This document shows, in pieces, positions 35,817 to 61,580 of a DNA stretch of 64,000 nt. The notes below the pieces were generated by a model that ran no database searches, was not told the origin of the DNA, and worked only from the letters and a program-made list of their open reading frames with translations. A program made the position numbers and the translations under genes. Origin of the DNA: Lunularia cruciata (taxonomy: Eukaryota; Streptophyta; Marchantiopsida; Lunulariales; Lunulariaceae); assembly GCA_948567375.1 (NCBI GenBank), contig OX419761.1:11818243-11882242 (forward strand), read 5' to 3'. The stretch's first letter is position 1. Each line of letters opens with the position of its first letter.

Positions 35817-38800
35817 TTTTTTAGGACCTCTTCAAGAGGCAAGTTAATGTTTTGCGTACAATTATATATTGGACAAAAGGAGGTTATGAGAGCTCACATA
35901 GAGAGAATATTGGGGGAGGAGAGAGCAGAACTTATATTAGAGAACCAAGACCCATTTTTGTATCATGTAGTTCATTATAATGTCTTTGAGGTGATCTTAT
36001 ACATCTTATACACATGAGAGGATTTGGAGAGATTATATGAGGTGGACTGCATATTTTGGAGATTATAGTGCTTTTGGGCAAAACTTCAAGTTTAAGATCT
36101 AAACATGAGATTTTCACAAAGAATAGCTTGCATTATGTGTTATTTGAGACACTCAAAATTATTGTAAGAGCTGCTACATGCATTTTGCTAGATTTTTTGG
36201 AAGGTGGTAGGGTAAATTGTTCATGCAAATTGTATGCTCTTTGGAATTTTGTATAGAGTCTGCTGTATCTTTCATTTTTTTGGATTTCTTTAAAACTCTC
36301 CAAGAAAATTTAGTGAATAGAATTCTACCTTTTGGCCTAAGAATTAAGAAGAAATCATTCTTGCATAGCAAGTTTATAGTTTTTAAAGTGAGTTGTGTGG
36401 TTTTCAAACCAAATCTGAAATATGAATATTGAATAGAAAGGTGCCTAGGCCAAATGGTTCAATTAAAAAATCTAAATTTTTTCAGCAGAAGACGCCATAG
36501 GTTCCTAACTAGGTGTGAAAAAATTCAGAGTAATTTGATATAGCAATTGAGAGAATTTAATAACATTGTGAAGAGTGGTTCTAGAGAGTTGAGATCTCAT
36601 GCATGAGGAGTGTGAGAGCAACCAAAAGCATATTTGAATGTTTAGACTCATCTTGGGAACATGGAGGGTGGGCACCAAGAGAGGAAGTTGAGGTGATTGT
36701 AGGGGTAGATTTGAGGACAAAAGAGTTTAAAATAAATTTTGAAGAGAGTGTTGAGAGGATCCAAAATTATACACTACTTAATGGGAAGAGTGAGCCTAAG
36801 TGCTTTGTATGTGGAGAGAAGAGACATAAGGCAATTTCATGTCCATTGACATTTGAGAGTAAGAGATTAAGGGAAAGGAGAGGCTTACTTGACTTGGGTT
36901 TGCATATTATACCTTCTTCAACAAGATTGGGAGGGAGGAGATCTAAGACCAAAGAGTTGTGTGAAGTTTGTGGAGTGGAAGGACTTTCAAAAGGACATTA
37001 TTGTAATGGAGTAATAAAACTTTTGGAGACTTTGGTGAAGGATCTTGCAGAGAGTCTTAGTACAACTACAAAAAATATTATCACCTTCATCAGCTAGTGT
37101 TCAAGATTAGTGATGGATATAATCTTTCAACTTATTGATAAACTATCCATAAAATTTCAATTAATATGCATTTTAGGATTTTATGTTGCTATAGAAATCT
37201 TTGTAAAAGACTTCATAAGAGCTTGCATACAAAACAATGAGAGGAGGAAGAATGAGTGGGCTTCATTATTACTAGATTTCTTTGAGGATGCAACACTTGC
37301 ATGGTATGAGTCAAAAATACCAAAAGAGAGAAGAGAGAAAGGCAATGAGGATGATGTGGAGACTACTATGATTGATATAGGAGCCATACTCACCAAGAAT
37401 TTTTTGGGAAGATTGAGACCTCAAATTAGAAGTAAGATGAAATATGAGAAACCTTCTTATAAGGTTGAAGCTATCAAGATTGCAATTTGTATGGAGGAGA
37501 ATTTGGAAGAGGATGAGAATGATGTGGTGGTGAAAGAAGTTGTATATACTCCTTAAAGCTACAAGTATGGTAGAACTTCTGATACTTTGGTTGTAAAGGT
37601 TGTATCACAAGTAGTAGTTTAACTAGTTCTTGCATTTCTACCAAGAGATCCACTACAAACTATCATAGAACAACTTGCCAATCTTAAGATTAATGTAGTG
37701 CAACTATGGGAGAAGAGAGAGCTGGATCAAAATGTGAGGAGAGGGCCTATGAGTTATGGAAGCTATCTGTATAGAGGAGGCCAATCAACCAACAATTTCA
37801 ATGATAGAAATTATTTTTTTTGTGGAGGAAGAGGTCACATCCAAAAGAATTACCCAAATTCTACTTACCATGGAGGAAGGAGTTATGAGGGAGCCAATAG
37901 AGGGAAACAAGGAGTAAGTGAAACCCAAGTGGCTCTTAATGCAACCAAAGGTAAAGGGATATCATCCATAGACATGGTTGAGAGCAAGTATGAGAAGGGA
38001 GAGTCCTTAAACTCCAAAGGTCTCAATTTGGAGCTTTTGGCACAAGAGAAAAATAGAGCTTGTTTTGTAGATGATCTACACTCTTCTCAAGGTTTCACTC
38101 CTTGCAAGGATACTCCTATGACTACAAAGAACACTTGCTCTAGCACTTTAACATCATCAAAAACAAATACTCTAAGGAAGAAGTTGAGGATGGAGGACTT
38201 CTTGATCTCAAAGTAACAATGTAACTACAATATGTTGGAGGATGCTTGTAGTCACAAGGCTAACATCATAGTGAGTCAACTAATCACTTTGAATCCTTCC
38301 TTGAGAAAGGGGCTTAGAGGTGGTTTGAGTTCTACAAGGAGCAAGAGGAAGAAGAAAGAAAAAGCTACAATGTCAATGGGGGTGATGGATGCCAAATTAA
38401 CACTATGGGAGGCTTGTGAATATACCTCCAAGATTGATGTGAGAGTGAATGGTCATATCATCAAGGATGTACTTGTTCATGGAAGATCTGCAATGAATGC
38501 CATGTTAGAGAGGTTGATGAAGAATTTGGGTATGATACCCTCTAGACCTTCAACATTTATGGTGAGCATGGAAAACAAGAAATTTTTTTGACCAGTATGG
38601 ATGATAGTTTTAATTATGGTAATTCAAAGGGTTTAGGGTTTAGGGTTCAAAATCTCATGACTTGTCAAGTCTTTAAAGATTCAAACTATGATTTCCTTCT
38701 TGGGAGGCCATGGTTGAGGGCAACTAATAGATGGCACAAAGGGTACTTAAGGATTTGGCTATCAAACCATAGAGCTATAGTTGCTATGACTAACTCCACC

Positions 38801-41800
38801 AACACTTCACATTCAAGTACACTATCTTCTGATTGTTGAAAATCAGATTCAAAAGAAGGAGCTTCAAGTGTGAACATAAGCATGGAGGAGTAGAATTCCA
38901 TGCAAGAGTATGAATTTGAATCTGATTCAAATGTGTATCCCTTGTGTATTAAGGATTTTTCACCTAAACCAGAGGTCTTGAAGGATCTTAATAAATCACC
39001 GCTAACACTTGAGGAGATAGAGAGGAGGTTATCTACCCTCAAGTATGGTCCAAATATTACCAAGGAGTAGAAGGTGAGATTTGAGGAGATTTTCTACAAG
39101 TTCATCCATGTGTTTGCTTTCAATTACAAGGATATGAAGGAATTCACCTTGGAAGAGCACAAGATAGAGATGGAGTCACATGCAAGACCAGCCCGCCAAA
39201 AGTAACATTGCATGAGCCCACCAATAGCTTTGGGTGTGATGAAGGACATTGATAAACTCAAGGAGGCCAGATTTATCTTTGAGTAGAGAATTTAGAATAA
39301 GTGTCTCTAATTATGATTGTGAAGAAAAAGAATGGTAAGCTTTTGGTATGTGTAGATTACAAGAAGCTCAACATTGTTACTAAGGAAGACTATTACCCTT
39401 TGCCATTCATTGATGAGATCTTGGAGGTGGTTGTAGGTCATGAGTGGTACAATTTTGGAGATGGTTATAATAGGTATTATCAAATCAAGATTACACTAAA
39501 CCATCAACAACTCACCACATTCATCACACCTTGGGGGACTTATGCTTTCAAGGTCATGCCTTTTGAACTTTGTGATGCTCCAACCACATTCCACCAATTT
39601 ATGAACAAGGTGTTTGAAACTTTCATTAGGAAATATGTGAGAGACTTCATTGATGACTTTTGTGTCAATGGGAGCAAGGAAGAGCATTATGAGCACTTGA
39701 TCAAGGTCTTGCAACACTTGGATGAAGCAAATGCACCACTCAACCTTAAGATGTGCATTTTTGGTAGTGAAGAATGTCTACTTTTGGGGTACATTATCTC
39801 CAAAGATGGAAAAGTAGTTGATCTTGAGAAAGTGAGGAAAATCTCATACCTTCTATTCCCTTCAAGCTTGACAAAGTTGTGCCAATTCTTTGGGATGGTT
39901 GGGTACTACAGAAGGTTCATCCTATCATTTTCCAACAAGGCTTATGCATTGACCATCCACATGAATAAGGGTGTAAAATACATGGTGATTTTGGAGGACA
40001 ACAAGGCTCTAAAATCTTTTGAGGAACTGAATTAATTCTTTGTTATAGCTCCAATTATTGATAAACTTGATTAGAGTATGTATATACCCCACTAATGCTT
40101 CAAATGTAGCTTAGGATTCACTCTTAGTCAATAGGACCAAGATGAGCATGATAATCAAATAGCTTATGCTAGTAGATAGATGGTTTCAGCAAAAAAGAAC
40201 CACTCAATCACACAAGGAAAAGGGTTGGCAATGATCTTTGGCCTCAAGAAGTTTAGACACTATTTGATTGGAGAGAAATCTATCATTGTCATAGACCACA
40301 AGGCTTTGAAGTACATCTTCAACAAGCCTAATGTGGAAGAGAGGCTAGTAGGGTGGATGATACTTTTTTTGAGTATGGCTACACCATTGAGGATATGCCA
40401 AGGGAGAAATATGCAAATGCTTATTTGTTATCTGGGGCCTATGATCATGATGGAGTTGAATGAGTGGATGATTCCTTCTTGGATGAGAAGCTCATGGTAA
40501 TCTCAATCACTCAAGAGGTTACAAGGAGATTGCGGACTTTGTTACAAGAGGTAACTATCCAAAAGGGATGCATGTGAGGGAGAAGAAGGCTCTTGCATCA
40601 AGATCTAGACCTAACACAATGGTGGAGGATATTATTTTTCAACAAGGAGCAAATGGTCTACTTCAAAGAGCAACAGATAAGGAAAATTCTATCCTACTCC
40701 TAAAGGAGTTTCATGAGGGTTTAGTGTATGAGAGACACTTTGCAGTAAAGATGACTACTTTCAAGATTCAAGATGAAAGTTACCATTGGAGAGGGATTTT
40801 CAAGAAATTTTTTTTTTATTGTAAAACTTGTCATGTTTATCAAACTTTTGCTAGAAAGTCTACTTCCACTCCTCTCTTAGATCAATTCCATTACTATGAC
40901 CTTTTGAGAAGTGGAGAATTGACTTTGTAGGTCCTCTTAATAGACCCCAAGGAACAATTGGTACATTATGGTATTTATTGATTACCTTACCAAGTAGGTT
41001 GAGGTTAAACTAGTGACGGAAAAGAATGAAGATGAAGTTGGTAGATTTCTTTATGAATACATTAATCACAAGGTTTGGATGCCCTTTGGAGTTGTTTTTT
41101 GATAGAGGATGAGAGTTTACAAAGAGCTTCACTACACCAATGCTATGACATTTCTCTATCACACATAGAGTAATTGCATCCTATAAGCCAAATTATAATG
41201 GCTTGGCAGAGAGAACCAATCAGACCTTGTGCATGATGTTGACCAAAGATGAAAAAATAGGAAGGAGCTAAACATCATTGGGACAAGAGGATTCATGTAG
41301 TTTTGTGAGAGTATATGACAACCATGAAGACTTCCACCGGATATTCTCCATTTCATTTAGTATATGGTATTGAGCCTACCTTACCTATTCACTTTGATCT
41401 TTCTACCTTTCCAAAGCATTCATAGGATATTGAAGAAAGCACAAAGAAGTGATATAGAGAAGTCAAGGAAGGATCAACTCATGGAATTGGAGGAGGTAAG
41501 AGCAGTTGTTGTGGTTCAAGTGAAGAAAGCCCAAAGGAAACAAAAGGAGAGCTATGAAAGAGGCAAGGCAAGAATAAGGTGGAGCTCTTCAAAGAGTTGA
41601 TTGGGTAGTGTTGTTTGATTCCATTTGATTCAAAAGAATGCAAAAGAAGTTTTTGCTTAAGTACTTTAGACTTTGCATAGTGGAGAAGGTGTGAGACAAT
41701 TATACTTATGATCTCAAGGACTTGGGAGGAAGACACTTTGATATGATTAACCGTGATAAGTTGAAGATGTATCATAGAAGGTAGAGAGACCTTCACTTTG

Positions 41801-50459: not shown

Positions 50460-52242
50460 GTGTGTTAAATAAATTTGTCAACTAATAACTGCAAGCACGT
50501 ATCTGAGAAGGGCTTTGTTGTCAGTGCATGCACTTGGGATCTAAAGTACCAAGCCTTCAATCTCTCCAAGGGGGCTTCCACTACCACCTTTGTGATCTGC
50601 TCTAGATGGTCCCATGCCATCTCCATCCTCACCAAAATTGTAGTCTTCTCCAGGTTGAATTGGGTTGAATATTCCTCCATCTCAACCACAATTTCCCCTC
50701 AATTGGCTACTCTATCCTTCTCCCCTTTGTCCTCCTTCTTTCTTCAGGTTCTCTGCAAGTTTCTTGACCTAGATATTAGCAATTTGTAGCTCCTCTTGAT
50801 AACAAATTTCTGCTGCTACAAGGGACACCTCCACTCCTTTACTTTTTTCTTAAGTGTGTCAATTTTTGCTTCTTGGGCTTTTACCTATTCTTCAAGCTCT
50901 AGTCATTTATGTGTTTCTTCCTTCAAGTTGGACACCTTCTGCCTTGTCATCATTTCTTCCACAATCTTCTTCTCTAAGGCCTTGCTTTCTTCCTTGAGCT
51001 TGGCTGCCTCTTGTGCCAAGTTGTTGCTTCATTTCCTCATCTCCAAATGCTAGGCACAAACTTCTTTCAGTTCTTGCCTTGCGTCCATCTTCTCTTTGGT
51101 TACTCCTTGCCCAACTTGGTGAAGATGCTTGATGAGGGTTGCGTTATCTTTGACTCCCCTATGAGATGCCATGTATGTGGGGAGGAGTTGTTCCATTAAT
51201 TCCAACGGTAGACCAACCTTGTACACCACTAATTGTGAATGTGGCACTACCACAACCAATGTAGTCTCCTTCTTGCTTGAGCTCTCCCATCTTCCCATTT
51301 TGAATGAAGCCAAGGGTCCACTCTCCTCTCTCTTGATCTCCACAAAGATAGTTGGCTCCTATAGCTTGGATCTCAAATTTGTTAGAGCTAGTGCCTCCGT
51401 CTTGGATGACCCTTTGTTCTACTTCTTGTCTTCTTTTGGAAGTCCACCTTTGGCCTGAAGACCTTCCTCATCCTGATAGAAACCCACATCCTCCACCTTG
51501 AGAACCTCTTCAGCACAAAGGACTCCTTGGCCCCTTAGCTCCACTTCTCCTATGGGTGGGCACAAAGGGGATTTTGTCATCCCCAAACCATCCACCATAC
51601 TTTTCTTTGGGCTAGAAGGCCCAACTTCTTGATATAGGGGCAGATGTTTGGTGTCCAAAGGTGGGTTTTCTTTCTTCCTTTGGTAAGTTGGTCATCTGGA
51701 GTTGGACAAGGTGGATTGTACTTCTTCACCTTCATGATCTTCAATAGCTGCCTTGTTTGACAACATTACTATCCTTGTGAAGGATTGCTCATTGGCTGTT
51801 GGGTACAATCTGGCTATGGTCTCCCACCACCTTCTTCTTCTTTGTCCTCCTCTTCTTCCTCCATCAGGATCCTCCTCATCCTCTTTGTAGCTTTTGCCTT
51901 TGGCCTAGAAGGAGTAATGGGTTGTTTCCAAAGTATTGGCTTTGTGGAAATCTCCTCTTGCCTTTGCTTCTCAAAGCCCAAGGTGTTGTAGGCTTTTTCA
52001 CCCTGACAAACTTCCCTATGTGGCAAAACTCCCCATCTACCTACAAATATTTTCATACTATGAGCACTCTTTCATTAGGCTCATCAAAATGTCCCATGGG
52101 GAAGAAGTGGTCCAGGTGCTTCTTCTCTTTTGGGGTCAGCAAATCCATCTCCAAGTAGAAATGGATGACAAAAGAGGATATCAAAGTTACCATTTTTTTG
52201 TTCATAGTCTGTGCAAGTTCTCTTGTCCTTACCTAGAACATT
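50460..52242 (-). mobile_element. Coiled-coil retroelement family, copy D, downstream part
   Basis: Minus strand. Charged and coiled-coil frames include AAKLKEESKALEKKIVEEMM and a glutamate run (EEEEEDKEEE) near 51,840. It ends exactly at the target-site duplication of the PIF/Harbinger transposon. The upstream part of the same copy lies beyond that transposon, at 61,146-61,580. Several breaks; old, and older than the transposon. Confidence 0.5.
52240..52242. other. Target-site duplication (ATT), left
   Basis: ATT directly precedes the left terminal inverted repeat, and ATT directly follows the right one (61,146-61,148). Three-base duplications are typical of PIF/Harbinger insertions, which usually prefer TTA or TAA. 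Confidence 0.65.
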
Positions 52243-52260
52243 AGGGGGTTTCAGAAATAG
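52243..52260 (+). repeat. Left terminal inverted repeat of the PIF/Harbinger element
   Basis: AGGGGGTTTCAGAAATAG. It matches the reverse complement of 61,127-61,145 (AGGGGGTTTTCAGAAATAG) except for one T. Confidence 0.8.
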
Positions 52261-52951
52261 ATTTGACGGATGTCAATGGGATAATAACAAACTTCATAAT
52301 AATTTTAAGTGAACTCTATAATGAGATGAGATTGTAATAACTGAATGCTCTTTAATTTCAGTTAAGGGATATTTTATGCAAATTGCATTCATTTATAAAA
52401 ATCAAGCCATATGTTTAGGAATGCTGTAACTAAATAAATGACTGTCAGACAGAGTGACATGTTTTCTGAAGAGGGTGGCTATGTGGCTAGTTGAGTCACA
52501 TGATTTATGATTTGATTTATGTATTCAAGATTCAAAATGCCCCCGCCCAACAATTCAAATTTTTAAACTCAAATTCACCACCCTCCTGAGCAAATGTGAG
52601 AGTAGTGAGGCAACTAACAACGGTTTTGTAGTTTCACATTGGTGTGGGAAATGATCAGCATTGCACTACAGAAATCAAGAAATTGATTAGGGGTCAAGGA
52701 ATTTTATGCTAGCAATGCAACACAATTTTTGCAATGGGAGATCAAGAACCTTGTTTTAGTGCAGGAACTCACTTTTTGATGCTGATCTAGGACCTATAGA
52801 GTCATCTTTGATTTGCAACCTCAACAACCATTAGGGAATTTGGAGACCTGTTGAGGATGACTTCTTCTGTGCCAAGCAAAACAAAGGAGGATGAGAAATT
52901 TTGCATGGAAACCATTATAGCCAAATACTAGATTATTTGGAGAACCCCGAG
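52261..52951. other. Left subterminal region of the PIF/Harbinger element
   Basis: Non-coding, AT-rich up to ORF1. No further inverted repetition with the right end beyond the terminal repeat is visible. Confidence 0.5.
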
Positions 52952-53053
52952 CATGGTGGGAATTACAAAAAGCCCATACATGGCGCAACCTTTGATTCCC
53001 ACCATGAATCTATGGTTGCGAATCATTCATGGTGGGAATTACAAAAAGCCCAT
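52952..53053 (+). repeat. 26-bp perfect direct repeat with an internal inverted copy, at the start of ORF1
   Basis: A 26-bp sequence starting CATGGTGGGAATTACAAAAA occurs at 52,952 and 53,028. Between them ATTCCCACCATG (52,995-53,006) is the reverse complement of its first 12 bases. The 76-bp offset adds codons near the N-terminus of ORF1 in another frame, so the true start of ORF1 may be slightly different. Confidence 0.85.
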
Positions 53054-54113
53054 TCAGAAATTGACCGCATTTAGTTTCATGGCAACCTTTTTGATTAGTG
53101 ATGGACAAGGACTTCCTACTTCTATGATAGGTGATAAACTTTACAAGAAATGGTTGCGGTACATGAAACAATACAAAGAAACTCGAGAGCTTAAGAACAA
53201 TTCTACTGGAGAAGGTCTCACGGAGAAGGAATATGACAAAGGGTGGAGAACTATAGAAGATAAATTGAATGGAATGTACCTACATTTTGCAAGAATGGAA
53301 ACCATGTTTGGGACCAAGGCAAACATAAGTCCACCTGCAATGGTAAGTTTAGGAGATTTTAATCCCAATACAAGTGAGATTTGTGAGGCAGGCGAGGAGG
53401 AGGTCCATGAAGGTGTGAAGGAAAGCTCACAATTCTCATCTCCTCCAGAGGTGGTGCTCCCTGACTTGGGCTCCCAGTTGGTTGCAAACACCCAAGGGGT
53501 GGAAAGTATACCAAGTGGTATGGACAATGGAATCCTCTCACCCGAGGATGAGTCTCCATTTGTTCCACCGACCGAGGACTCACATTTCACTACACCACCA
53601 CCTTTAACTTCTACAAGGGATGGATCCGAGTGTGCTTTTGCCAACCAAGAAGGGGAACATGACCCAAAGAGGAGAAAAGGTGGAATATCAGCAACTAAGG
53701 TACCCAAGTTGTCACCTATTATGTCATTGTCTCATGATTTAGCAAAAATTACCATGTTGAAGGCAAATACTATAGAATCTAGGGAGAGGTTATGACTAGC
53801 TGAACTAGAAGCCACCAACATGAGGAAAAGCAAGAAAAAAATGATGAGAATGGAAGCAGAGCGTGTTAGATTAGAGACAAAGAAGATGAAAATTGAAATT
53901 GAGAAAAAAATGAGCGCAGATAAAAGGAAAGCTAGGGCAAACAAACACAAATTTAAGGATAAGAGTTTGGAATCAAAGTGCACTCTTGAAATCAAAATGA
54001 GTCTAATACAAGCAAGGAAAACTCCCAAGGATATAAGTTACTATTTTAAAGTGCTCACTCAAGTTCAACGTCCATTGTACTCTATTGATAGCAAATATTA
54101 TACCAACATGTAA
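52953..54113 (+). pseudogene. PIF/Harbinger ORF1, Myb/SANT-like DNA-binding protein, one in-frame stop
   Basis: The frame opens at ATG 52,953 and runs 280 codons to TGA at 53,793-53,795, then continues in the same frame to 54,113. The core near residues 60-135 (KLYKKWLRYMKQYKE, N.STGEGL, ME.MFGTKA) fits the Myb/SANT-like domain of PIF/Harbinger ORF1. It is followed by an acidic, proline-rich middle, a basic PKRRKGG patch that could be a nuclear signal, and a lysine/glutamate coiled coil after the stop. The TGA lies between RERL and LAELEA and looks like a single point change. The start codon may lie inside a local duplication. As an unplaced gene it could be mistaken for a host Myb factor, but the terminal repeats place it in the transposon. 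Confidence 0.7.
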
Positions 54114-54149
54114 CCTTTATTATGATTATAATAAAGATGAGTTATGGAG

Positions 54150-54545
54150 ATTTGATAAATGCTGCTAGTATCTGCCAGATGCTGCTCATTACCGCTCCTT
54201 ACGTCTCAGTTCCTCTTATGTTTTTCCTTGGCTGCACATAGTCAGCCCAAGATGCCACAAGTTGCCGCTCATAGCCGCCCATAAACTCTTTTCTGCCGCT
54301 GCTAGTTGCCACTCAATGTCGCCACTCAATGTTGCACTTCATTGAATAAAGACCAGCTAGTGCTTGTAGGCACTCATAGGTACTTGCAGACACTCAAAAT
54401 CACTCTCACATGCTTGTAAATAGTGGTAGGTGCTTGTAGGCATCCATAGGTGCTTGTTTATACTTGTTGGTGCAAGTCATGGCTTGTTTGCACTCGTTGA
54501 TGCTTGTTGGTGCTGAGGGATGCCCATGATGGGTTAAGTGTGGTG
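54150..54545 (+). repeat. GGTGCTTG / TGCCGCT-rich short repeats
   Basis: Many imperfect short motifs: GCCGCTCAT, TGCCACTCAATG, then GGTGCTTGTAGGCA (54,431) and relatives at 54,361-54,520. They resemble the GGTGCC-rich stretches at 57,240-57,600 and 58,500-58,720, and so bracket the relic-gene region of the transposon. Confidence 0.55.
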
Positions 54546-54759
54546 ACTCTCAATATGGATGGCGCATATAGGTGCAAAGTGATGACCCGTTTGATACACA
54601 AAGCACAATTGAGTATATAGCACATGAAAATATGAGAGTTAGACAAAAATATGAGAGTTTCACAAGTATAAACTAAAAGTTAAATTATACATGGGGATAA
54701 ATGAACAAAAGATGTTTTTAAATAAGGAGCCAATAAAACCTAAACTTGTGACTATGGTG

Positions 54760-57140
54760 GTCAAAGAGGTGAAGAAGAAGAGGGAGATGCACCGTGGTGT
54801 CTAAGTGCTTCTATTGCGTCCTCAAGTCTACGATGGTATACATGATGTTGAATCCTAAATGCACTCAATGACCACCATAGGGGCCACTTGCTCTCATCCA
54901 AGTCTTGATGCCTGATACCACTAGCAAGAAGATAATATGGGTCACAAATATAAGAACCCAGTCCACTCCTCTTCTGCCCAACTAACAACAGGCCTATCAT
55001 CATGGACAAATCTATCCAAAGCACTCATCAAAGGGCCAAATGACCAAGTGTATGATGCTCTCTAAACCCTATAAGGACAGAAGTGTGTAGGGTAGATAGC
55101 ACCATTTGGATGGTTCCTATAATAAGATAATGCATAACTATCTATGATCAAAAGATCATGAAGAGGTAAACCTAATGAAGTAAGATGCTCATATGATCTA
55201 ACTCTAAGTCCTTTGAACTCAGAATCTCACTAGATATCTATAGAACACAGAAAGGCCACGAGGTGAGACCCAGTGTGAACTCCTTCCATGATTTTGGACC
55301 ACTGCCACATGCTCCATAGCAACCACTCCACTCCACTCCATCTCGAGTAAGATCTATCCACAAGATAACCTCAAAGTGTAGCAGACAAAATTGGATGAAA
55401 TGGCTAACACTAGGATGGGCTACCCACCCTATAAGCCCAGATTGTGTGTGAGGGCACCAACCATGCCTAGTCATCCCGCTCTCCCATGCATGGAAACCGA
55501 TAGCACCACAAATCCACAATGATGTCAAAGAAGTAACATCCACAATAATAATCTTCTTCCGAGGGAAGCCTGGGAAGAGGATACGTGGAATATACTCTCT
55601 TGATAGACGAATCCTCTCTTTAAACTAAGTCTAAGTGCCCCAAGTCTCCACACTATAAGGTAACACATGGGTGGCATCAGTTTGGATTTGCATCTCATGA
55701 CGAGTATGGGTCTGGCGAGCAACCATATGATGTCTTGGTCCAAGATAAGCCACATGAGCCCTCATATGAGCTAAAATACTCTCGCTCTCCTCTAACTACA
55801 CATGTGCACTCTTGCACCTCTCTATAGCATATGCTAATTCATGTGCTTGATTTTGTAACTGGACCCTATAATGCTCCGCTATGGCAGTGACACCTAGTAT
55901 ATCCAAGTCCAAGTCAGCTAATCTCTACTCTCTCTCCATCTCAGAAGTAAGCAACGCCAGATGCCTCTCTTCCTTTGCATCAAGTAAATCCTCTCACTCA
56001 CAAAGGAGTCTCTCTTGCTCTAGCACTAATTTCTCTCCTCTACACTATCCAATCCACTCTCATGCTCAAGCACTAATCTCTCTCTCCTCTACACTCTCCA
56101 GTCTACTCTTATGCTCAAGGAGATTTCTCTCTCTACACTAAGTCACTCAAACACAATCATCTAAAATGAGAGTGATGTCAAAAGAACAAGAAGGAGGTGA
56201 AGGTACTCTGAAATGCATGGGGCCACCAACCCCTTTCACAGACAGAGAAAATGGTGAAGGGAAAGAAGAGGGAAAAGGAGCTATCTCAACAAAGGGAAAG
56301 GGTTGTATCTCAACACAAATCTATTGAACACCTATTCACAAGTGGTACATTTAGTTATCCATCAAGTACAAGTTCATATTTGAATTTCAAAAATACACAA
56401 GTTCATTAATTCAAGCTTCTTAACTTACCTCATTTATTAAATCCGGTAATGGTATATACAAAAGAACTTTGTATGTTTTCTAACATACAAATATATGAAA
56501 ATAAAATTATATATATATATATATATATATGAATATGAAAAAACTCAAACGTAATCAATCAATCAATCACTCACCATCCTCATCCTCCCCATCATCAATA
56601 GTCTTGTCCTCATCTGAGCTATCTGTATCCTCATGATCATTATCATGCTCTCCCTCTTGTATAATCTCCTTGTCTCCATCACTCAGTACATCACGTCCTC
56701 CTTTGGAACTAAACCTCTCTCCACAAAGAGATGAGTGAGTATCTACCCAAGGAGGGCGACCCTGAACCTATGCCCCTTAGGACTCTTCAATTGGCTTTGC
56801 AAACTCCACACCTCTGCAATGATAGTTCTAAATGGTAACTATCCCCAATCATAATAGTCCACACCAAATCTCCTCAACCTAGTCTTGGTGTTGAGTACCA
56901 AATGCCTATGTACAATCTTGGGCCTAATAGTGGGTGTAACAAGTGCACCCATCAACTGGAAGAAAGCTTAGAATGCAAGATGCACACATTGCTTTGCAAG
57001 ATATCATTTTGCAACCTTGTCCCTTTGTGGGAACCAATCTAAGATAGTTGTGTAAGGAACTATCCTCCGTCTTGGTGTTCTCCCCTTTGGCATGGTAAAT
57101 GCATCTCTAACTATATCTAAAATCAATTGAAACTTCTTCC
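54760..57140 (-). pseudogene. Unidentified gene relics inside the PIF/Harbinger element
   Basis: On the minus strand, gene-like but broken frames run from about 57,140. The first part has TPRRRIVPYTTILDWFPQRD and a segment with RFGVDYYDWG. It ends in a strongly acidic tail near 56,690-56,570 (HEDTDSSDEDKTIDDGEDED, then a stop). A second part from about 55,755 to 54,760 includes SLWICGAIGFHAWESGMTRH, SFGPLMSALDRFVHDDRPVV and SGIRHQDLDESKWPLWWSLS. I recognise neither. They may be a captured host gene, the remains of another element, or an extra gene of the transposon. Several stops and shifts are present. Confidence 0.4.
56508..56530 (+). repeat. AT microsatellite
   Basis: About eleven TA units in a row between the two relic segments. 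Confidence 0.9.
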
Positions 57141-57239
57141 CTCTTACCAAACCTGTGCAAGAGATCTTGTCCCATGAACTCACAAACTTTGTACATGGAA
57201 GGACCTACAAAAACCCACCAAGAAAATTAGCTCAAGCTT

Positions 57240-57600
57240 CCATAATAAGGACTCAAGCCAAGGGGTGCCACTCGCAACTGCTCGAAGATGCCCCTGGATA
57301 GGAGAAATGCAACAAGCACCATTGGGTGCCCAAGGATGCTCCCAAACTTGGTGCCCCTTGCATGGCACCAGAGGGATAGCCAATGCCACGCATAGGCGCC
57401 TGATGACGCTGCCCGCAAGTGCATTGTTGGAAACCATTGCGGGACAGGCAAGCACACCCAGATGACATTGGGTGACGTGGAGACGCTAGGTGCCACACGG
57501 AGATGCTAGAAGGTGCTTGCATGAATGGTTTAGGGTGTAGGGTCAGTGCAGGGTAGCACTAGGGGACACAGGTAGATGTTGGGAGTCGTTGCATGACAGG
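57240..57600 (+). repeat. GC-rich GGTGCC-motif region
   Basis: Much GC-richer than its surroundings, with GGTGCC or GGCACC occurring repeatedly (for example near 57,256, 57,319, 57,350, 57,365). Open frames in several registers here are by-products of composition. It resembles 58,500-58,720. Confidence 0.5.
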
Positions 57601-58104
57601 CTAGGAGGTGCTGATAATTTGGAAGGCTAAATGTGCATAAATCAAAATCTTGAGGTGCTTGAATGTTTGAAAGTAGAGAGAAATGAAGGAGGTTTGAATA
57701 ATACCTCTGGCCATGGATAGTGAAGTCTAACTGTAATTTTTAGGCAGATTACATCTAGATCGATCTCCTAAATTCTATAAATAACGGTTCAAATCTGATG
57801 TTTGTCCAACCAGCACCATTTGATGAAATTTGCTAGGTGTTGAATGGTATGAAATGCTATGAGAAAATCTCCTTCTTGAGTATTTCTCATGTCGGGCCCA
57901 TCAACTATCTTTTCATACCCCTAGATTTCTGCCATGGTTCAAATTGAGTCTACTCTTCCTATGTGTCTCTCTTCTCAATCTCTCAAATGTTCTCCTTCTG
58001 TTTCTCTTGAATCTCCAAAGCACTCCTTCAATTCAAATTCTGAATGGAGCTCTTTCTCTCAAAATTCCAATTCTCTTAGGCCCCATAGAGAGTTGGCTTC
58101 CTAA

Positions 58105-58320
58105 CAGTTTGCCTCCTTCAGCTTCAGCAAGCTTGCCTCCTTCAACAGCAAGTTTGCCTCCTTTGAGTTTGCTTCCTTCAAACACCCCACTCGCAAAATG
58201 ACTCTTTCTCTTTTGAACACCCCACACACTCCCAAAATGAGTCTTTCAAATACCCCACACACCCACACACTTGCAAAATGACTCTTTCAAACACCCCACA
58301 TACCCACGAAATGACATCAA
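58105..58320 (+). repeat. Two adjoining minisatellites
   Basis: First a 12-15-bp array of TTGCCTCCTTCA-like units (58,109-58,175). Then three to four longer units built from ACACCCCACACAC and AAAATGACTCTTTC (58,177-58,315). The Cs are concentrated on the plus strand. Confidence 0.75.
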
Positions 58321-58988
58321 CTCAAAAGAGGAAGGTTTATATAACCCCATGCTGGAAAGGAAATTTGAATACCCAAACATCCAAAATGTACACATCCATA
58401 GAAAAAAATCAATATTTCAGACAAAAGAACTTAAATCTTGAGTGGCAACATGTGGCACTCCACATCATCAACCAGTGCAAGCAAGCATTATATATTTCAT
58501 GCAGCACCTACCAGTCCCATCTCTCGGCGCCGATGGGTGCAATTATTTTTTTTGAACTTGGAATGTTGTCCTAGTGTCCTCCAGCATCTACAAGTGCCAT
58601 TGAGTGGCGCCTGATGGTGCCATGCGGTGGTGACAGGCACAAGCCACTTTTTGGTAAGTTAGTGGGCTGCCCCCAATGTGTACGAGTGCCATCGCACGGC
58701 ATCTATAATAGTCATTGGCCCACTTTAACTTTTTCCCAACAACATGTGTCTAGCGACTTTGAAGTGTAAACTTGCCCAACACCACACCGTGTAAGTGTAA
58801 GCTCAAGCCTTACTTATGTATAGATGAAGCTCCAAAGAATTCCTTTTGCATCCTGCAAATTCTTATTCCAATATTACATCAAGATACACTCATAGTCCAA
58901 GCTAAAGACTCTTGGTCTAAGTTCCCAGACTATGAGATATGAGATGAATAATTGAATAATATACATAATTTATTATATGGAAACTCAC
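58321..58988. other. Non-coding region 3' of the transposase gene
   Basis: It contains a GGTGCC-rich stretch at 58,500-58,720 and otherwise no feature. Confidence 0.45.
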
Positions 58989-60215
58989 TCAATTGAGTAT
59001 ATCATCATTGTGATAATCAAGGAAAATTTGCATCACCCTTGATCTACTTTCTTCTCTACCAAGTTCTATACCATGAAAAGACATTTCCAAATATATTTGA
59101 GTTTCCTTTGTAAATCCGCCATCATCATCTGACCAAAAGTCAGACCTATTGATTTCAAAATTATGTAAAATAATACACACTGATACACACTTTAAAAAAT
59201 AAGCATTTCTACTACTGTCTTTGAGTTGCACTCTTAGCTCACAAAGAGAATTCCATCTAGCTTTTAATACTCCTATACAATGCTTACTTATCACTCTTGC
59301 CTCTGCTAAATATTTATTAAACTTCTGCTTGTCCTCTGTCAGGCCTGCTTGAAAGCGAGGACTAGGTGATGCATGGGTACATAACCCGAATCACCTAAAA
59401 GGTAATCCTTTGCCTCAAAAGTGAGACAACTCCCTCTTTGGTTCAAATCATTCCATAGTGAGGATTTTTTCAAACAAGTCATGTCATGACATGACCTTGG
59501 CATTCTTGCAAATAAACAAATCAAATTATACTTTTAGTAAACTATACAAAAAGGATCACCAATGCATTGCAAAAAAACCTAGCAAAACAACACATAACAT
59601 AAAACATACCTCCAGAAAATGTATAATTCTCCTTTTAACATCACACATCACTTGGCCATTTATAGAATATGAACCCTTGCAGCTGAAATATATTTCCCCG
59701 TCCACTATTGGTTGAGCTGCAAGAGGAAAACATGTTCCATCTACCAAACCAACACAACCAGGAAAACCTTTCTGTGCAAAAATAGTGGATATCCTTCTCC
59801 TCTCCTCGAGTTCAGGCCACGTAACTTGACTCCTCATCACATCTAATATGGTTGTCATAACTCTATCAGTAAAAGCAATTGTTGAACCAACACTAATGCC
59901 CCAAATATTTAAACCTCACGCCACACAAGCTCCATTGCCATGATGCCCAAATCTATCCAAGGCTAGGGCAACTTGGATCCACACGGGTGTTTGCTCTCTT
60001 GGGTAGCTTTTCTCAAAAATCAGGTGAATCTTAATCAAATCCACTAATATTGAAAAAGAATAACCATCCATTCTAGTAAGCTGGCAAAAGACCTTAGTAT
60101 TGAGATTTCTAAAATATTCCATCACAAACTCTCTACTACGAGGGTAAGTAACACGGGGTTCCAAGTATCAATGAGTATGTGCATACTCCCATCCACTAAT
60201 AAAAAATTCTACCAT
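58989..60215 (-). pseudogene. PIF/Harbinger DDE transposase, inactivated
   Basis: Minus strand from an ATG at 60,215. Family landmarks: TRMDGYSFSILVDLI, a region with IQVALALDRFGHHGN, then GCVGLVDGT holding the first catalytic Asp (codon 59,741-59,739). RSCHDMT follows, then YLLGDSGYVP with the second Asp (59,392-59,390), ISKHCIGVLKARW, and CIILHNF near the end. In the family an acidic Glu sits just before the HCIG-like motif; here the codon at 59,285-59,283 is AAG (Lys) where GAG is expected. TGA codons lie at 60,170-60,168 and 59,918-59,916, and a frameshift lies near 59,345. A 105-bp GT-to-AG segment (59,609-59,505) may be an intron, though splicing there alone would not keep the frame. 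The gene is dead. Confidence 0.8.
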
Positions 60216-61126
60216 ATCTAAATCTCCTCCTAATTCTTTGTCTTAGTCTTTATCTTCTAATCCTTGTAGTGATATCTTCAAGTCTAACCAAATCATCCAT
60301 CGAATACCTTTTCTAATATTTCTAGTTAGTTCTACATGAGTGCTCACTCTTGGCGTGACTTGACTCAATTTTTAATCACCACAGATAACTCCTTATTGGC
60401 AAAGGGGCATCTTTATTCTCTATGCACAGATCAAAAAAACAATCTCATAAATTTCATTCCGTAACAAGAAAATAAGTTCATGAATTTCATTTCATCACTC
60501 AAAGAGGAACAAGAGCATAAAGTTCATACTTTTACCAAGAGATAATGATCATAAATTAAACTTTTGTAAATAATGAAATCAAGGATTTGGGAGAGTAACA
60601 CTTCAAAAAAAATCACTCCTCCCTCTAACATTCCCACAACCCGCACTCAAATCTTCCCACTCCAAATGAATTCACTCCCCCTTCCAACTCTAGCTATGGC
60701 TCTCTCAAATCTTCATCATTGGTCAATTTTTGCATGCCCTCAAATCTTTCCACTCATGCTCCCTCCAATCTTCCTCTGTGGTAAAAGATCCCATTCCCAG
60801 TCGTCTAGTGCATAAATTTGTCAACTTTTGATTACCATGGGTGTTCTCAAACATCATGGATGCTCCCTTTGGTGGCCACCACTTTCACTCTAACCCTAAA
60901 TGATAAACTTTATTAACCCTTATACGTAATCAATGCACTACGGAGTGATAACAAAACATTCCTTATCCCTTATTTTCTACAAACCACCTCATATGGAGTG
61001 TGCAAATAATAAGGAACTTGGCCCAAACTCCGTAACTATACCCTTTTTACCTCCCATTCACACCCTGTACCCCTTTAGTCAATGCTTTGTAACTATCTAT
61101 ATGAAAATCTATGAAACTTTGTATAA
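60216..61126. other. Right subterminal region of the PIF/Harbinger element
   Basis: AT-rich, with short frames that show no recognisable motif. It ends at the right terminal inverted repeat. Confidence 0.5.
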
Positions 61127-61145
61127 CTATTTCTGAAAACCCCCT
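61127..61145 (-). repeat. Right terminal inverted repeat of the PIF/Harbinger element
   Basis: On the minus strand AGGGGGTTTTCAGAAATAG, matching the left repeat with one extra T. ATT follows at 61,146-61,148. Confidence 0.8.
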
Positions 61146-61580
61146 ATTGTTGCCCATTCTACAAATTTCCCTTGGTATAAATGCTCTAAGAAAATTGCCT
61201 AGCTATTTTTCAAGTAAGTTATTTGTTTGGATTTGAACAGCTTCATGATTGACTCAACTAGGGTTCTCCTCACATGATCTTCAAAACCATGAACAAACCA
61301 ACCCATTGTTGGTATTCCTATCTCTAAAAGTGGCCTTGAACTTGGCCTTGATGGTCAAGTTTGGTCAAGACCATATGCTATCAAGAGCCATGTAGTTTGA
61401 GCATGAGTTGATAAGCCTAGCAGTCTCTACCAATGCTTCTTGGTCTAGGAAAAGAGGCTCCCTCTCAAATTCACTCGTTTTGGATCTTCATTATCTCTAA
61501 TTTCATGCAACATTGCATGATTCCTCAATTTCCAATTCCATGGCAAGAATTTGAGCTTCTTGCTACGATTGTCTATAATA
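61146..61580 (-). mobile_element. Coiled-coil retroelement family, copy D, upstream part
   Basis: Minus strand. The tryptophan-rich block (FLPWNWKLRNHAMLHEI, near 61,550) and the following region up to the transposon edge match copy B in order. The homology to copy B stops at the transposon and resumes at 52,242, so the transposon inserted within this copy's coding region. Fossil, with several breaks. Confidence 0.5.

Follow-up and report, generated by a model that had tools for sequence, protein, structure and literature searches.

Within the PIF/Harbinger-ISL2EU-Spy (PHIS) superfamily of DNA transposons, the Pangu group of Han et al. (2015) is characterized by target duplications of the form ANT, ends of 11–40 bp that usually start with AG or GG, and a mean length of about 3.5 kb among autonomous candidates (PMC4482050). 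In the sections of that paper covered here, the Pangu transposase clade adjoins IS5, and the second open reading frame (ORF) has no known motif according to the Results and is given as Myb/SANT in the Discussion. The 34 families come from 15 genomes of animals, fungi, a heterokont and two algae; these two algae are what section 6 names where the abstract says "plants" (PMC4482050). Repbase lists the same group as Harbinger2 (PMC12730594), and no land-plant member is found in the section 6 list or in the passages of PMC12730594 covered here. We describe here an element from the land plant Lunularia cruciata, located in a stretch of 64,000 nucleotides (the window; assembly GCA_948567375.1, contig OX419761.1, positions 11,818,243 to 11,882,242 of the forward strand). 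Our preferred reading, to which we assign a probability of roughly 0.82, is that it represents a Pangu (Harbinger2)-type, high-copy, three-gene cut-and-paste DNA transposon within PHIS, of which the window copy is a decayed member. A first-pass annotation of the window had called it a PIF/Harbinger transposon, which is correct for the superfamily in the wide sense. It had also taken the ATT target as the mark of an unusual lineage, and the ANT duplication together with AG ends indeed corresponds to Pangu/Harbinger2, as far as the covered parts of the two sources describe it (PMC4482050, PMC12730594).

The element in the window is 8,903 bp long (52243-61145) and is bounded by inverted ends and by ATT on both sides. 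The left terminal inverted repeat is 18 bp long and starts with AG (AGGGGGTTTCAGAAATAG, 52243..52260, plus strand), and the right one is 19 bp long (CTATTTCTGAAAACCCCCT, 61127..61145, minus strand). The two copies of the duplicated ATT, placed by reading the sequence and the empty sites, lie at 52240..52242 and 61146..61148, so that the bounds of 52240-61148 given previously include the duplication. The genome searched comprises 565.8 Mb in 74 contigs, of which eight that yielded matches are 60–85 Mb long. The perfect 18-bp end occurs in it 454 times, as compared to a single occurrence of the reversed control. First-look candidates numbered 1060 for the left 401 bp used as a query, 1020 for the right 411 bp and 705 for 1 kb of the middle block; 40 were scored in each case. 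The end repeats and the duplication reported in the first-pass annotation are not due to chance, and the element belongs to a real, well-bounded, multi-copy transposon family.

The flanking triplets were compared in 20 copies with both ends read, and were identical in 15 of them; every identical triplet was of the form ANT. The first set of ten consisted of the window copy and nine fetched loci (L014, L015, L016, L021, L023, L026, L028, L029 and L030). Identical triplets were found in the window and in six of the nine loci: ATT in the window, L014, L016 and L026, AAT in L015 and L021, and ACT in L030, whereas the triplets of L023, L028 and L029 were not identical. The L015 triplet was scored with the outer of two left ends, which lie in the same orientation 38 bp apart (minus-strand positions 57 and 95); this looks like an insertion at the end of another copy. 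The second set consisted of ten head-to-head pairs picked for two perfect ends at most 15.4 kb apart, drawn from about 100 of the 454 listed ends, with a 17-kb pair left out; two of the ten belong to shortened copies, 1.2 and 3.5 kb long. The triplets were identical in eight of these pairs (ATT in five, AAT in two and ACT in one) and differed by one base in the other two.

Genome-wide, ANT precedes 399 and CAWT 229 of the 454 perfect ends. Among the places listed, nine head-to-head pairs lie less than 16 kb apart, four of them shared with the second set, and all nine carry complementary triplets. When the two flanks of the window copy are joined, they match a repeat; the 40 scored matches comprise these two flanks themselves and 38 sequences that cross the junction. 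Six empty sites were read, each with a single triplet and no element; five have ATT and the sixth, L069, has GTT. The empty site at L071 is exact and reads AACATT joined directly to GTTG. Thus, based on the identical triplets, the ends preceded by ANT and the single-triplet empty sites, we conclude that the duplication is ANT inside a CANTG-like site and that the first base of the element is A.

The majority consensus of 21 copies is 8913 bp long and shares 90.5% identity with the window copy (Kimura two-parameter distance, 0.10). On the minus strand, the consensus opens a two-exon transposase, with an intron that splits the DDE domain. Exon 1 (59610..60371) holds the first D in VGLVDGT and contains two TGA and one TAA codons in the window copy. 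Exon 2 (58989..59504) holds the second D in LLGDSGY and is frameshifted in the window copy, which has K at the third acidic position where the consensus has E. These are presumably the catalytic residues, which we place from the family motif. The protein belongs to DDE_Tnp_4 (PF13359), with Pfam E-values of 2.9e-9 for a window ORF and 6.4e-21 for the consensus exon 2, while a search of PDB yielded two weak and unrelated matches (E 0.3 and 0.49). Its DDE domain shares 23–29% identity with seven further DDE_Tnp_4 sequences from this genome (L077-L083), in which the domain is uninterrupted. At one transposase copy (G000:C8:46130414-46131376), both exon matches report a 404-codon open frame, and the intron position seems to be free of stops.

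ORF1 lies at the opposite end on the plus strand (52734..54113, start codon placed by eye) and has an open frame of 443 codons in the consensus. In the window copy, a TGA interrupts this frame at 53793-53795, and a local duplication is present around 52950-53055. The convergent arrangement of ORF1 (about 52734-54113) and the transposase (about 60371-58989), with approximately 4.9 kb in between, agrees with the first-pass annotation. That annotation had also described ORF1 as Myb/SANT-like, a family that hmmscan did not report for the ORF1 of the window, for the consensus of the copies or for 12 stop-free segments from copies. A profile search of PDB returned four weak matches (best E 0.75), none of them Myb/SANT, and the only recurrent weak match was to DUF5787, below its cut-off. 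ORF1 may be a divergent trihelix protein and, judging from the superfamily, is probably a DNA-binding partner. Because of the TGA and local duplication in ORF1, the stops in transposase exon 1 and the K in place of E, the window copy is dead and decayed, and is not expected to be mobile itself.

The block between these two genes carries an intron-containing gene, here called ORF3, on the same strand as the transposase (minus). Exon A (56575..57204, 210 codons, boundaries placed by eye) has an acidic C-terminal stretch. It is followed by an intron with the donor GTGAGT and an AT microsatellite inside (56333..56574, boundaries by eye). Exon B (54755..56332, acceptor by eye) has a Pro/Ser-rich start, a heptad-rich, coiled-coil-like part and a conserved C-terminal part, and is interrupted in the window copy. 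The two exons are joined in frame across the donor, as judged by eye. The open frames are 223 and 468 codons long in the consensus, and the native second frame of L041 is open for 545 codons. Since exon A starts at a splice acceptor, a further upstream exon is expected. It may be located in the fast-changing region between exon A and the transposase (57205..58988), where no gene was recognised and where parts of 57.3-57.6 kb could not be aligned among copies. Six copies form a younger subgroup with 92.5–96.4% identity across the ORF3 region. Between ORF1 and ORF3, at about 54320-54540, the window is repetitive by eye, with GCTTGT/GGTGC-like units.

Searches with the ORF3 exons gave no match in PDB, and the Pfam scans of the exons found, which do not include the first exon, gave no SET family and no TET match. 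The AlphaFold2 models are of low confidence, with a predicted local distance difference test (pLDDT) score of 56 for exon A and 36 for the C-terminal part of exon B, and Foldseek found nothing in PDB better than E 2.7 for the exon A model. A possible likeness of exon A to plant mobile and "putative plant transposon" domains was set aside as it had no hidden Markov model support.

ORF1, ORF3 and the transposase gene are carried jointly between a shared pair of ends. Stretches of 10 kb around matches to the middle block were fetched at 20 loci, a sample therefore chosen by that block, and ORF1, the middle block and the transposase were colinear in 14 of them. Within the fetched stretch of the remaining six, L020, L022 and L024 lacked the transposase, and L025, L031 and L032 lacked ORF1 or all but its tail. 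As an independent check, the top-match lists of the three proteins were compared; these hold best-scored matches only, so that absence means little. Among the 134 listed ORF3 matches, 90 had ORF1 and/or the transposase in the expected position and strand: a transposase on the same strand 3–12 kb upstream in 56, a convergent ORF1 0.5–4 kb downstream in 62, and both neighbours in 28. Four control arrangements, with the wrong strand or the wrong side, gave zero in each case. Expected neighbours were likewise found for 80 of the 109 listed ORF1 matches (ORF3 or transposase) and for 74 of the 150 listed transposase matches (ORF3 or ORF1). The joint travel of the three blocks that the first-pass annotation had put up for checking is thus borne out. 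The opposite case, with ORF1 and the transposase in separate elements, was not seen among the matches listed, and the data on co-travel point the other way.

Selection on ORF3 was analyzed by counting transversions as nonsynonymous and synonymous changes on the internal and terminal branches of a tree of 34 ORF3 regions; three of the 37 aligned regions (L034, L037 and L040) were left out as partly aligned. In the true frame of exon A, the nonsynonymous to synonymous counts were 56:43 on internal branches as compared to 293:38 on terminal branches (p 2.8e-11). The corresponding counts for the C-terminal part of exon B were 59:37 and 304:51 (p 7.9e-7). Shifted exon frames displayed no synonymous excess, and one frame of exon B deviated in the opposite direction (p 0.048). 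In the same branch test on the 21 middle-block copies, p was 0.004 for ORF1, 0.037 for transposase exon 1 and 0.61 for transposase exon 2. The analysis of the 34 regions shows that ORF3 is under frame-specific purifying selection across subfamilies. We take it to be a protein that selection maintains in source copies, while those that have inserted decay, and ORF3 is therefore probably not passenger DNA.

A number of observations weigh against our preferred reading. For the target site, five of the 20 copies have non-identical triplets, and the suggested placement in the Pangu group draws on the duplication and the termini. For co-travel, 44 of the 134 listed ORF3 matches have neither neighbour among the matches listed. 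Concerning selection, the coiled-coil part of exon B is borderline (65:20 internal, 210:36 terminal, p 0.066), and the ORF3 intron used as control was without signal in two of its frames and had p 0.005 in the remaining one; with L034, L037 and L040 still included, the initial test also gave p 0.007 for the intron. The 21 middle-block copies alone gave non-significant results for ORF3 (p 0.25 and 0.57). The low density of changes in ORF3 was dropped as a sign of constraint and constitutes no evidence, since it is equally low in the intron and the copies were chosen by the middle block. Finally, the first exon of ORF3 was not found, and the other exons contain no recognisable domain, with nothing passing the Pfam cut-off and only MCCA_BT appearing at E 0.21.

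One alternative is that the middle block is transduplicated host DNA carried as a passenger, comparable to grapevine Pifvine-3. Transduplicated gene pieces are frequent in long grapevine PIF elements, according to the covered part of PMC2528002, and ORF3 has no Pfam match related to transposable elements. We nevertheless consider this unlikely, because the purifying selection on ORF3 is specific to its frame and holds across subfamilies, and because the block occupies the same position and has the same orientation next to 62 of the 109 listed ORF1 and 56 of the 150 listed transposase matches. None of the 134 ORF3 places that were scored falls below 74% identity, and they resemble copies of the family, with no distinct parent gene among them, although a more distant parent could escape since the 134 were scored out of 2752 candidates. 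The suggestion in the first-pass annotation that the element had captured extra DNA therefore gives way to a gene under frame-specific selection that recurs beside ORF1.

The two other alternatives concern the bounds. At the left flank of the window copy, TTA stands beside GGGGG, and the DDE_Tnp_4 domain is also found in canonical PIF, so that one could suppose a canonical PIF/Harbinger element with a TTA/TAA duplication mis-read by one base. The right flank would then be TAT and not TTA, the copies with ACT and AAT are incompatible with TWA whereas ANT fits 399 of the 454 ends, and the empty sites hold a single triplet; we regard a mis-reading as very improbable. Two nested or adjacent elements, the outer ends of which mimic one unit, are conceivable in so far as the double left ends of L015 show that such clusters occur. 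However, full-size units of 8–10 kb with paired matching duplications recur at many sites, and the 25 longest of the 42 inverted-repeat pairs include no second end pair within the window copy, which leaves this explanation with hardly any probability.

Two short derivatives were found in addition to the long copies, L075 (G000:C1:5235000-5236240) and L076 (G000:C6:34361560-34362850). They are non-autonomous, about 1.2 kb long and approximately 86% alike, and share about 350–430 bp with the element at each end. Their end regions are about 72.5% (left) and 86–91% (right) identical to the consensus, and they are flanked by matching duplications, ACT and ATT, respectively. The retention of the end regions together with matching duplications suggests that the ends alone are sufficient in cis for mobility. 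The middles of both derivatives show a weak match to the consensus at the repetitive region around 54320-54540.

For the Pangu-type transposon that we favour, the following mechanism can be proposed. The two-exon DDE transposase would cut at the AGGGGG...CCCCCT ends, with ORF1 as its putative DNA-binding partner, and the element would insert into CANTG-like sites and duplicate ANT. Standard PHIS cut-and-paste chemistry would account for the duplication and the empty site and agree with the domain. ORF3 would add a third protein that belongs to the transposon and is maintained by selection in source lineages; it may act as an accessory factor, most likely in silencing escape or in the assembly of the transposition complex. 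By analogy with the SET protein of HarbingerS, the TET protein of PHISTA and the anti-silencing protein of Vandal, a role in silencing escape is a tentative proposal, somewhat short of even odds, and a role in complex assembly or multimerisation, which the coiled coil would suit, is a little more tentative still. That a land-plant branch of Pangu/Harbinger2 gained a third essential protein of a new family, with an anti-silencing or complex-assembly function and as a counterpart to the SET and TET proteins of oomycetes and fungi, is an idea we put forward with more doubt than confidence. PHIS elements mostly have two proteins or one, and a third one under selection would enlarge the toolkit for transposition or silencing escape. 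The ANT-duplicating, IS5-like Pangu group would also extend to land plants, and the presence of full-size and 1.2-kb derivative copies in one genome makes the function of ORF3 testable.

Elsewhere in the window, a 671-codon frame on the plus strand (220-2235) matches DUF247, a plant protein of unknown function (PF03140, E 1.9e-35). In the genome as a whole, a search with the NAM domain (PF02365) gave 14 candidates and 15 matches at the exon level, corresponding to about ten genes. NAM is a family of land plants that is small in bryophytes, and the count suggests a bryophyte rather than the flowering plant supposed at first. A retrotransposon relic lies at 36585-40035 on the same strand, with RVT_1 at 39301-40035 (E 3.1e-13); ORFs upstream of RVT_1 have CCHC-like motifs by eye and no Pfam match.

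Among the known systems, Vandal (MuDR) resembles the present element in being a plant DNA transposon that encodes an additional protein. In Vandal this protein regulates the silencing of the element, which provides a functional model for ORF3 (PMC12730594, in the passages covered). Vandal belongs to another superfamily, and the likeness to ORF3 would be one of function, with no claim of sequence similarity. HarbingerS of oomycetes and PHISTA of rust fungi are Harbinger-type elements with an extra protein, there an epigenetic enzyme (SET and TET/JBP, respectively; covered passages of PMC12730594). In contrast, Pfam detected neither a SET domain nor a TET match in the ORF3 exons found, and PHISTA duplicates TA, as compared to ANT here.

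Canonical PIF/Harbinger elements (PIF, Pong, MtMaster and Pifvine) share with the Lunularia element a DDE_Tnp_4 transposase, a separate ORF1, short non-autonomous derivatives and, in Medicago, a variable ORF order. They differ in their TWA duplication, which is not found here. Their ORF1 is of the Myb/SANT type, a family that the hmmscan and PDB profile searches did not return for the ORF1 described here. Their lengths are given as a mean of about 4.1 kb (PMC4482050) and as 5–7.2 kb in grapevine (PMC2528002), and the published descriptions covered here contain no selected third gene. The order of orf1 and transposase varies among the PIF-like elements of Medicago, with no convergent case among the descriptions covered (PMC2213677). 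The first-pass annotation had regarded the layout as unusual; the convergence itself stands, but it carries less weight, since a gene order other than that of Ping/Pong is not unusual by itself in view of the Medicago elements.

The closest agreement is with Pangu/Harbinger2: the ANT duplication is seen in the triplets, at the perfect ends and at the empty sites, the ends of 18/19 bp with AGGGGG fall within the Pangu range, the transposase is of the PHIS DDE type (PF13359) and no known motif was recognised in the second ORF. The typical, although not defining, Pangu element has mostly two ORFs and about 3.5 kb, whereas the present one has a third conserved gene, a length of about 9 kb (8913 bp in the consensus) and a land-plant host. 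The element is of a known kind, with a new gene content and probably a new host range.

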